From NCBI RefSeq assembly GCF_023330665.1, contig NZ_CP097127.1, positions 2,170,001-2,234,000 of the forward strand: 64,000 bases of DNA. The letters are read 5' to 3'. The stretch comes from Conexibacter sp. S30A1. GTDB lineage: Bacteria > Actinomycetota > Thermoleophilia > Solirubrobacterales > Solirubrobacteraceae. Numbering within the stretch: position 1 is the stretch's first letter; each line of letters starts with the position of its first letter. The position numbers and the translations under genes were made by a program. Shown piece by piece: positions 48,501 through 50,664 of this stretch. Under the pieces are notes generated by a model that saw only the letters and a program-made list of their open reading frames with translations, had not been told where the DNA came from and made no database searches.

Positions 48501-48974
48501 TCAGGCGAGCGTGCTGCGCGCCTGGTTTTCCGGGGTTGACAGCCAGGCAGGGCCGGGGCCGTGAGCGGCCTGCTCGTCGCCGGGGTTGCGCAGCGCACAG
48601 TTACGCAGCGACAGGCAGCCGCAGCCGACGCAGCCGGTCAGCTTGGCCCTGAGGCGCTCGAGGTCTGAGATCTGCCGATCGATCCGGGCCGTCCAGTCGC
48701 GTGAGACCCTGGCCCAATCGGCCTTGGTCGGAGTTCGGTTATCGGGCAGGCTCCGCAGCGCCGCGGCGATCTCCTCGAGGCTCAAGCCGACCCGCTGGGC
48801 GGCGCGGATGAAGGCCACACGCCGCAGCGTGTGGCGTGGGTAGCGCCGCTGGTTGCCGGTGGTCCGTTCGGCGCAGATCAGTTGCTTCTGCTCGTAGAAG
48901 CGCAGCGCCGAAGCGGACACCCCGGAGCGGGCCGACAGTTCGCCGACGGTCAAGGTCGCAGGCAGCTTGGTCAA
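48501..48974 (-). CDS. soxR: SoxR-type MerR-family redox regulator
   Basis: A 157-aa regulator. The winged-helix MerR domain reads LTVGELSARSGVSASALRFY then EQKQLICAERTTGNQRRYPR, followed by a dimerisation helix and the 2Fe-2S cluster motif CVGCGCLSLRNC (C-x2-C-x-C-x5-C). Redox-cycling agents or nitric oxide oxidise the cluster and switch the protein to an activator. It starts at TTG 48974 with GAAGGGG a few bases before it. It is divergent from the transketolase genes; a SoxR-box palindrome lies in the 53 bp between them. In actinobacteria SoxR usually controls small sets of redox genes without SoxS. Confidence 0.92.
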   Translation of the reverse strand: MTKLPATLTVGELSARSGVSASALRFYEQKQLICAERTTGNQRRYPRHTLRRVAFIRAAQRVGLSLEEIAAALRSLPDNRTPTKADWARVSRDWTARIDRQISDLERLRAKLTGCVGCGCLSLRNCALRNPGDEQAAHGPGPAWLSTPENQARSTLA

Positions 48975-48990
48975 CTTTTCCCCTTCACAC

Positions 48991-49021
48991 TTGACTTCAA
49001 CCTAACTTGAAGTTTTAGCAT
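48991..49021 (+). promoter_or_regulatory. SoxR-box promoter of the transketolase genes (19-bp spacer)
   Basis: TTGACT (48991-48996) and TAGCAT (49016-49021) are separated by 19 bp, the overlong spacing typical of MerR/SoxR-activated promoters. The palindrome ACTTCAACCTAACTTGAAGT (48994-49013) lies in the spacer and is close to the SoxR consensus (CCTCAA-N6-TTGAGG). The expected transcription start is at or next to the transketolase ATG (49028), so the mRNA would be leaderless. Confidence 0.8.
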
Positions 49022-49027
49022 CGGCGC

Positions 49028-49741
49028 ATGACCAACACGATCACCGACGCCAAGCGTCGCTACGGCTACCCGGACCTGCGCCTCCTGATGGCACTCCAGA
49101 CCGGCGACGAGAAGCACGACGGCGCCTCCACCTCGACCCTGGATGTGCTCTGGGTGCTCTACGAGCAGATCCTGGACGTCGCCCCCGAGCGCGCGAAGGA
49201 TCCGGAGCGCGACCGTTTCTACCTCAGCAAGGGCCACGGGCCGAGCGCCTACTACGCGGTGCTCGCCGCCAAGGGCTTCATCCCGGTCGCCTGGCTGAGC
49301 GGTTTCGGCGACGTGGAATCGCCGCTCGGCTACCACCCCGATCGCAACCTGATCCCCGGCGTGGAGATCTCCTCCGGCTCGCTCGGACACGGCCTGCCGT
49401 TGGCGGCCGGGACCGCACTCGGGCTCCGTGCCCAGGGCAACGGTGCGCGTCTGGTGGTGCTGGTCGGCGACGCCGAGCTTGACGAGGGCAGCAACGCCGA
49501 GGCGATCGAGTTCGCAGGCGCCGCCGGGCTGGCTGCGTTGACCGTGGTCGTGGTCGACAACCATTCGACCACCTGGCCGTGGCGTGGTGGTGTGCAGACC
49601 CGCTTCGCGGTGGCCGGCTGGCATACCGCCACCGTCAACGGGCGCGACCACGCCGCGCTGGCGCGGGCGCTGCGCCGCCGCGAGGCCGCAGCCGAGCCGA
49701 ACGTCGTTGTCGCGGACGTCGGCGCGGAGCGTGCGGCATGA
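49028..49741 (+). CDS. Transketolase, N-terminal (TPP-binding) subunit
   Basis: A 237-aa subunit that equals the first domain of transketolase. It has FYLSKGHGPSAYYAVLAAKG, PGVEISSGSLGHGLPLAAGT and the thiamine-diphosphate motif GDAELDEGSNAEAIEFA, ending with a VVVVDN segment (normally GDG...NN). Transketolase moves two-carbon units between sugar phosphates in the pentose-phosphate pathway. No ribosome site precedes ATG 49028 and a SoxR-type promoter ends seven bases before it. The stop overlaps the start of the C-terminal subunit gene. Split transketolases occur in archaea and some bacteria; substrate range of this pair is unknown. Confidence 0.88.
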   Translation: MTNTITDAKRRYGYPDLRLLMALQTGDEKHDGASTSTLDVLWVLYEQILDVAPERAKDPERDRFYLSKGHGPSAYYAVLAAKGFIPVAWLSGFGDVESPLGYHPDRNLIPGVEISSGSLGHGLPLAAGTALGLRAQGNGARLVVLVGDAELDEGSNAEAIEFAGAAGLAALTVVVVDNHSTTWPWRGGVQTRFAVAGWHTATVNGRDHAALARALRRREAAAEPNVVVADVGAERAA

Positions 49742-50664
49742 GCGACCTGTCCATGCGCGAGCAGTTCGCCCACACGGCCACAGCCCTGCTGGACGAAGAC
49801 GGATCGGTCGCGGTGCTGCTGGCCGACATCTCGGCGGGCCTGTTTGCCGAGGCCGCCCGCAGGCACCCGCAGCGGGTGATCAACCTCGGCATCCGCGAGC
49901 AGCTGCTGGTGGACGCCGGCGCGGGTCTGGCCCTATCCGGCATGCGCCCGATCCTCCACACGTTCGCAAGCTTCCTGGTCGAGCGGGCCTTTGAACAGAT
50001 CAAGCTCGGTTTCGGCCACCAGGGCGTGCCCGGGGTCCTGGTGAGCGCGGGCGCCTCCTATGACATGGCGCAGGCCGGGCGCACCCACCAGGCGCCGGGT
50101 GACGTGGCGCTGATCGACACGCTGCCGGACTGGGTCGTGCACGTGCCCGGCCACCCGAGCGAGCTCGACACGCTGTTGCGCGCGGCGGTGGGCGGTGAGC
50201 GCCCAGCCTACGTTCGCACCTCCACCCAGCAGAACGCCCAACCGCAACCGATCGACGAACGCGGCCGCATGACACTCCTGCGAGCAGGCTCGCACGGAAC
50301 CGTCGTGGCGGTCGGCCCGCTGCTTGACGCGGTGCTCGCCGCGACCAGCGGCATGGATGTGAGCGTGCTCTACGCCGCCACCGTCAGGCCCTTCGACGCC
50401 GCGACCCTGCTCGCCACGCTCCAGACCCCAGATGTCGTCCTCGTCGAGCCCTACCTCGAGGGCACCTCGGCCCGCTGCGTGTCAGGCGCGCTCGCCCATC
50501 GCCCGCACCGGCTGCTCTGCCTGGGTGTGGCGCGGCGCGAGCTGCGCCGCTACGGGACCCCTGCCAACCACGACCGCGCCCACGGGCTGGACCCTGCCGG
50601 CCTGCGGGCCAGCCTGGAGGCGTTTCTGAACGCTCAGTGCGTCGGCGGGACCTCACCGTCGTAG
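49738..50664 (+). CDS. Transketolase, C-terminal (pyrimidine-binding) subunit
   Basis: A 308-aa partner of the preceding gene. It has the pyrimidine-binding domain (ADISAGLFAEAARRHP, RVINLGIREQLLVDAGAGLA with the catalytic Glu, PILHTFASFLVERAFEQIKL) and the transketolase C-terminal domain. The open frame extends further upstream, but ATG 49738 (ATGA overlap with the first subunit) gives the right N-terminus, MSDLSMREQFAHT. Together the two make up a full transketolase-like enzyme. The AGRTHQAPGDVALIDTLPDW segment fits a sugar-phosphate site. Its 3' end overlaps the convergent cupin gene by 31 bp. Confidence 0.88.
   Translation: MSDLSMREQFAHTATALLDEDGSVAVLLADISAGLFAEAARRHPQRVINLGIREQLLVDAGAGLALSGMRPILHTFASFLVERAFEQIKLGFGHQGVPGVLVSAGASYDMAQAGRTHQAPGDVALIDTLPDWVVHVPGHPSELDTLLRAAVGGERPAYVRTSTQQNAQPQPIDERGRMTLLRAGSHGTVVAVGPLLDAVLAATSGMDVSVLYAATVRPFDAATLLATLQTPDVVLVEPYLEGTSARCVSGALAHRPHRLLCLGVARRELRRYGTPANHDRAHGLDPAGLRASLEAFLNAQCVGGTSPS

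Follow-up and report, generated by a model that had tools for sequence, protein, structure and literature searches.

The question posed by this locus is what governs a split transketolase-like gene pair that stands head to head with a soxR gene, and what kind of chemistry is placed under that control. The window analysed here is a 64,000-nucleotide stretch of the genome of Conexibacter sp. S30A1. The initial annotation, made from the letters of the window, had proposed that a 20-bp palindrome close to the SoxR box lies in a promoter that begins at the transketolase ATG, so that a redox sensor would directly control an enzyme dependent on thiamine diphosphate (TPP). Direct control of the tktN-tktC promoter by SoxR is now given a probability of roughly 0.88, as judged from the operator, the spacer and their conservation, and this regulatory part of the proposal is strongly supported. 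Outside the enteric bacteria, the accepted picture of SoxR regulons is one of pumps and oxidoreductases directed at redox-active antibiotics; a TPP carbon-carbon bond enzyme under a near-invariant predicted SoxR promoter in three phyla, and apparently the sole SoxR target of its host, would suggest a form of stress chemistry, and no assay for it was found. The features concerned are as follows.

48501..48974, minus strand: soxR, a [2Fe-2S] MerR-family redox sensor with a TTG start and the cluster motif CVGCGCLSLRNC (TIGR01950 plus Cys motif)
48980..48985, minus strand: likely soxR ribosome site, AAGGGG (from sequence)
48991..48996, plus strand: -35 element TTGACT of the tktN promoter (from sequence; TTGAC kept at 96-100% per position across 78 sites)
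48994..49013, no strand assigned: predicted SoxR operator ACTTCAACCTAACTTGAAGT, between the -35 and -10 elements and within the soxR upstream region (from sequence)
49016..49021, plus strand: -10 element TAGCAT, 19 bp past the -35 (family consensus NANNNT)
49028, plus strand: predicted transcription start, on the first base (A) of the tktN start codon, which would make the mRNA leaderless (from the -10-to-ATG distance of 6-7 nt in 74/78 sites)
49028..49741, plus strand: tktN, the short N-terminal subunit (237 aa) of a split transketolase-like TPP enzyme (PF00456, 2.7e-25; closest solved relative 6yak)
49738..50664, plus strand: tktC, its C-terminal subunit (308 aa; PF02779, 2.5e-28; closest solved relative 6yaj)

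By its sequence, the divergent gene encodes a genuine SoxR: the product scores 200.1 bits against the NCBIfam model TIGR01950, whose curated cut-off is 116.9, and it carries the four-cysteine [2Fe-2S] motif CX2CXCX5C that was found in every SoxR of the set. The start codon of tktC and the end of tktN overlap as ATGA, which suggests translational coupling. At its 3' end, tktC overlaps a convergent minus-strand gene for a cupin-domain protein by 31 bp (window 50634-50664).

Where SoxR has been studied elsewhere, its box lies between the -35 and the -10 across a 19-bp spacer, and the protein occupies it in either redox state and activates in its oxidised form. The promoter ahead of tktN has the same layout of box and spacer. 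The letters and coordinates first described for TTGACT, the palindrome and TAGCAT were all confirmed, with 19 bp (48997-49015) separating the two elements and the palindrome between them consisting of two 7-bp arms, 100% complementary, around a 6-bp centre. It is identical at 14/18 positions to the Escherichia coli SoxR box CCTCAAGTTAACTTGAGG (quoted in PMC4411124), the same score as that of the experimentally proven mfsA box of Stenotrophomonas maltophilia. At up to 2 mismatches the palindrome occurs once in the 64 kb window, where 0.01 occurrences are expected, and two promoter patterns built on it each match this site only in the 3.46 Mb host genome, while a reversed-control pattern has 0 matches there; at that stringency the host apparently has one predicted SoxR target. 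A sigma-70 scanner did not detect the tktN promoter because it allows spacers of 16-18 nt only.

The nearest known parallel is the soxR-mfsA pair of S. maltophilia (TTGACC, 19 bp, CATGCT), for which SoxR binding and redox induction have been proven and in which soxR is autorepressed (PMC4411124). Both are head-to-head arrangements of soxR and a target, with the same placement of the box, the same spacer and the same likeness to the E. coli box; mfsA, however, encodes a major-facilitator pump and has an mRNA with a 39-nt leader, whereas the target here is a TPP enzyme whose transcript is predicted to start at the ATG. SoxR very probably both binds and activates the tktN promoter, to go by these sequence features. 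In the off state, SoxR seated on 48994-49013 would hold RNA polymerase at a promoter in which 19 bp is too wide a gap between -35 and -10; oxidation of its [2Fe-2S] cluster by redox-cycling compounds would then distort the DNA so that the two elements are read as correctly spaced, and transcription would begin at the first base of the tktN start codon, yielding a leaderless tktN-tktC mRNA and, from it, a two-subunit, thiamine-diphosphate-dependent, transketolase-like enzyme. The bound dimer would probably also limit divergent transcription of soxR.

The initial annotation had left it to a survey of related genomes whether the gene pairing and the palindrome recur, and had counted a lack of conservation beside this pair as a refutation; the survey came out strongly positive. 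Scanning the genomes of bacteria and archaea gave 80 loci, of which 76 (L032-L107) belong to this enzyme family; these 76 were the ones that matched the enzyme of the window best, which leaves distant family members under-sampled. They span Actinomycetota, Chloroflexota and one Acidobacteriota genome. The pattern TTGAC-Y-TCAA-N6-TTGA-R-GT-N3-A-N3-T, with its fixed 19-bp spacer and with no more than 4 specified positions changed, stands ahead of tktN in 75/76 of them, and soxR is the divergent neighbour in 33/76. The sole family locus without the box is L036, although soxR is present in its genome. When both strands of all the family loci (1.23 million positions) were searched at up to 3 mismatches, 75 matches were found, about the number of promoter sites themselves.

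These 75 promoters, together with those of L003, L004 and the window, make up a set of 78 sites in which the half-sites of the dyad co-vary: 77% of cells are complementary, with 93 compensated changes, as against a mean of 48 and a maximum of 63 in 500 column shuffles and at most 15 when the centre is slid. Half-sites that change together are the pattern expected of a symmetric protein-binding site, though the family loci are related and the counts of 75/76, 74/78 and 93 are accordingly not independent events. Short palindromes are common in general, and one might take this one for a chance match or for a DNA or RNA hairpin. Chance origin was rejected on the expectation for the window, the match count over 1.23 million positions and the shuffled covariation; the genome-wide uniqueness of the site and its retention with symmetric covariation tell against a hairpin as well, and the palindrome would not be transcribed with tktN if the start is at the ATG. 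The probability left to this explanation is negligible.

Whether the operator follows the SoxR protein bears on a second alternative, namely that another MerR-family regulator reads it. Adjacent soxR is missing from many loci, which speaks for such a reader; against it, 36/86 family rows of the tree set (the window among them) have soxR as divergent neighbour. The operator is retained in the loci where soxR is not adjacent. The genes upstream in these loci show no relation to one another, and no other regulator recurs among them. SoxR is encoded elsewhere in 40/41 of the genomes whose family locus lacks it as a neighbour, a count that is supporting rather than decisive, since many of these are Streptomyces, in which soxR is universal (PMC4146615); in one genome, G377, the box is present and no soxR was seen. 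In a sample of 297 genomes from the host's phylum, the enzyme family occurs in 8, and 6/8 of these have soxR against a base rate of 70/297 (hypergeometric p about 0.003). The box is missing ahead of the family members L124 and L125, whose genomes lack soxR, and ahead of a second family copy, L123; among 22 conventional split transketolases (L126-L147) there is likewise no box, the best match having 7-10 mismatches. The conventional split transketolases of the phylum sample differ from the window's enzyme family in having no SoxR promoter.

A point in favour of another regulator comes from L023 (1383-1930), where SoxR-like palindromes lie beside a ferredoxin gene and the gene for a MerR-family regulator that shares only about 33% identity with SoxR. 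A regulator related to SoxR may there share its operator sequence, and the palindrome alone is for this reason no proof of SoxR. Taken with the recurrence of SoxR as the one divergent regulator and the absence of the box where soxR is absent, a different MerR-family reader of the tktN operator seems quite improbable.

The same box could in principle serve the regulator's own gene only, with tktN read from another promoter. In loci with adjacent soxR, it lies mostly 16-23 bp from the soxR start, where SoxR could cover its own promoter as it does in S. maltophilia. Yet the box, its 19-bp spacer and the distance of 6-7 nt to the tktN ATG persist after soxR has been lost from the locus, which makes an exclusive role in autoregulation more improbable still. 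Repression of soxR by the dimer bound ahead of tktN is, on the position of the box, somewhat favoured.

The expected start point at the ATG, also part of the initial annotation, is likewise strongly supported as a predicted leaderless start. Six bases separate TAGCAT from the ATG at 49028, and a reading of the sequence ahead of this ATG confirmed that it contains no Shine-Dalgarno or purine-rich ribosome site. In 74/78 sites the start codon lies 6-7 nt past the -10, one of the 74 being a GTG (L100). The -10 itself is weak in most relatives (CANNNT), a point against direct control by SoxR. Leaderless genes of Actinobacteria are marked by a -10 that lies about 12 bp ahead of the start codon (PMC3160421), and 22% of Streptomyces avermitilis mRNAs are leaderless (PMC8780764). 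The tktN promoter resembles the leaderless TANNNT promoters described in those studies in the place of its -10 and its lack of a ribosome site, and differs from them in combining a leaderless -10 with a MerR-type operator in a 19-bp spacer. On this geometry a leaderless start of tktN is highly probable, and soxR/tktN-tktC would offer a clean two-gene system for testing a MerR-type activator on a leaderless promoter.

As to the enzyme, the TPP-binding and pyrimidine-binding transketolase domains (PF00456 and PF02779) are both above cut-off, while for NF004559 the two subunits score 124 and 85 bits against 488, an unfair comparison of the halves of a split protein with a full-length cut-off. The TPP/Mg motif (GDx..N) is kept, as GDAELDEG and N178, and these, the catalytic Glu (GIREQ) and the active-site His (H117) are invariant or nearly so across the enzyme family. 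In the canonical THDSIGLGEDGPTHQ segment (THDSIGLGEDG), by contrast, nearly all family members have small residues in place of the substrate-contact His and Asp, with Gly, Ala or Asn at the His position and mostly Gly or Ala at the Asp position. The family N subunit, of 209-250 aa, also stops before the HGxPLG segment, at which the host's canonical transketolase has HGSPLG. The replaced and lost positions correspond to E. coli His461, Asp469 and the His261 region, which contact the phosphate and hydroxyls of sugar substrates.

Among solved structures, both subunits are nearest to the Carboxydothermus hydrogenoformans split transketolase (6yaj/6yak), which shares the two-subunit transketolase fold but has an N subunit of 309 aa and keeps the His and Asp of its HAGLTVGEDG segment, both of which the window's family lacks. 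Two invariant Arg residues of tktC (R7 and R160) align with Arg in the Carboxydothermus enzyme, and an anionic group such as phosphate may therefore still be bound.

The initial annotation had linked the gene pair to the pentose-phosphate route and NADPH supply or, failing that, to a special substrate. The first link is not supported. Besides the split enzyme, the host has one canonical transketolase (C1:390824-392791, 852 bits), and a canonical transketolase is present in 30/30 tested genomes with the enzyme family, the host included; the split enzyme is an extra one that supplements it. In the Phytoactinopolyspora genome of L098, there is in addition a second full-length transketolase, tail-to-tail with soxR (G388:C36:134812-137259), alongside the split enzyme with its SoxR box. 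The presence of the canonical enzyme elsewhere and the loss of the substrate-contact motifs make a pentose-phosphate or NADPH role doubtful.

It might still be held that the switch works as described and that the enzyme is an ordinary extra transketolase, raising non-oxidative pentose-phosphate flux and with it NADPH under oxidative stress. The transketolase domains, the intact TPP/Mg motifs and the two aligned Arg residues with their possible phosphate would fit this, and E. coli SoxRS raises zwf. The canonical enzyme already at hand, the small residues in place of the THDS/GEDG His and Asp, the N subunit that ends ahead of its HGxPLG-bearing segment and the absence of pentose-phosphate genes from the recurrent neighbours all speak against it, and an ordinary role is considered unlikely. 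No pathway-revealing neighbour recurs across distant genera beyond soxR, tktN and tktC. The special substrate fits better than the pentose-phosphate route, though it is unproven; from the altered active site, the odds of a non-pentose-phosphate substrate for TktN-TktC are about even. The substrate of such an enzyme would most likely be a different or unusual carbonyl compound that the cell produces or encounters under stress from redox drugs. The fuller proposal is more tentative: TktN-TktC may be a hitherto unrecognised TPP-dependent carboligase or C2-transfer enzyme, rather than a pentose-phosphate transketolase, reserved for some substrate that arises alongside redox-active compounds (such as a reactive carbonyl or the redox-active metabolite itself), and soxR, tktN and tktC may move from phylum to phylum as a cassette that brings along a leaderless SoxR promoter.

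Among openly licensed full texts, the only link found between SoxR and a transketolase is a table footnote that independently predicts a conserved SoxR site at S. avermitilis SAV_1623, a "putative transketolase" (PMC4146615); subscription journals may hold earlier notice. The Streptomyces SoxR targets tested in that study are oxidoreductases, a monooxygenase, an epimerase/dehydratase and an ABC transporter. The present locus agrees with it in the occurrence of SoxR boxes in actinobacterial promoters, that of SAV_1623 included, but SAV_1623 is there a single line on one species, with no mention of the split enzyme, the leaderless start or the conservation across phyla. The features that appear to be new are the promoter's conservation across phyla, its leaderless geometry, the restriction to one predicted SoxR target in the host and the altered active site of the enzyme.

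As to the history of the cassette, close relatives of this SoxR and enzyme were found within the host genus in only two other sampled genomes (L003 and L004). In quick tree searches with both TktN and SoxR, the window groups with these two and with a Propionibacteriales MAG (L032), and the simplest reading of the agreement between the trees is that soxR, operator and enzyme were transferred laterally as one unit. The usual SoxR of the host order belongs to a different lineage; its partner in many genomes is a small protein with a PF17648 luciferase domain, mostly behind an ordinary leader. At ten loci (L005, L006, L007, L009, L010, L012, L016, L018, L020 and L021) a SoxR about 58% identical is divergent from the PF17648 gene across the same type of box, which makes that gene a predicted second conserved SoxR target; its ATG lies mostly 37-44 nt downstream. 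In L019, from another genome of the host genus, the gene for a Rieske-domain protein adjoins soxR and has a SoxR box (at 1948) directly ahead of it.
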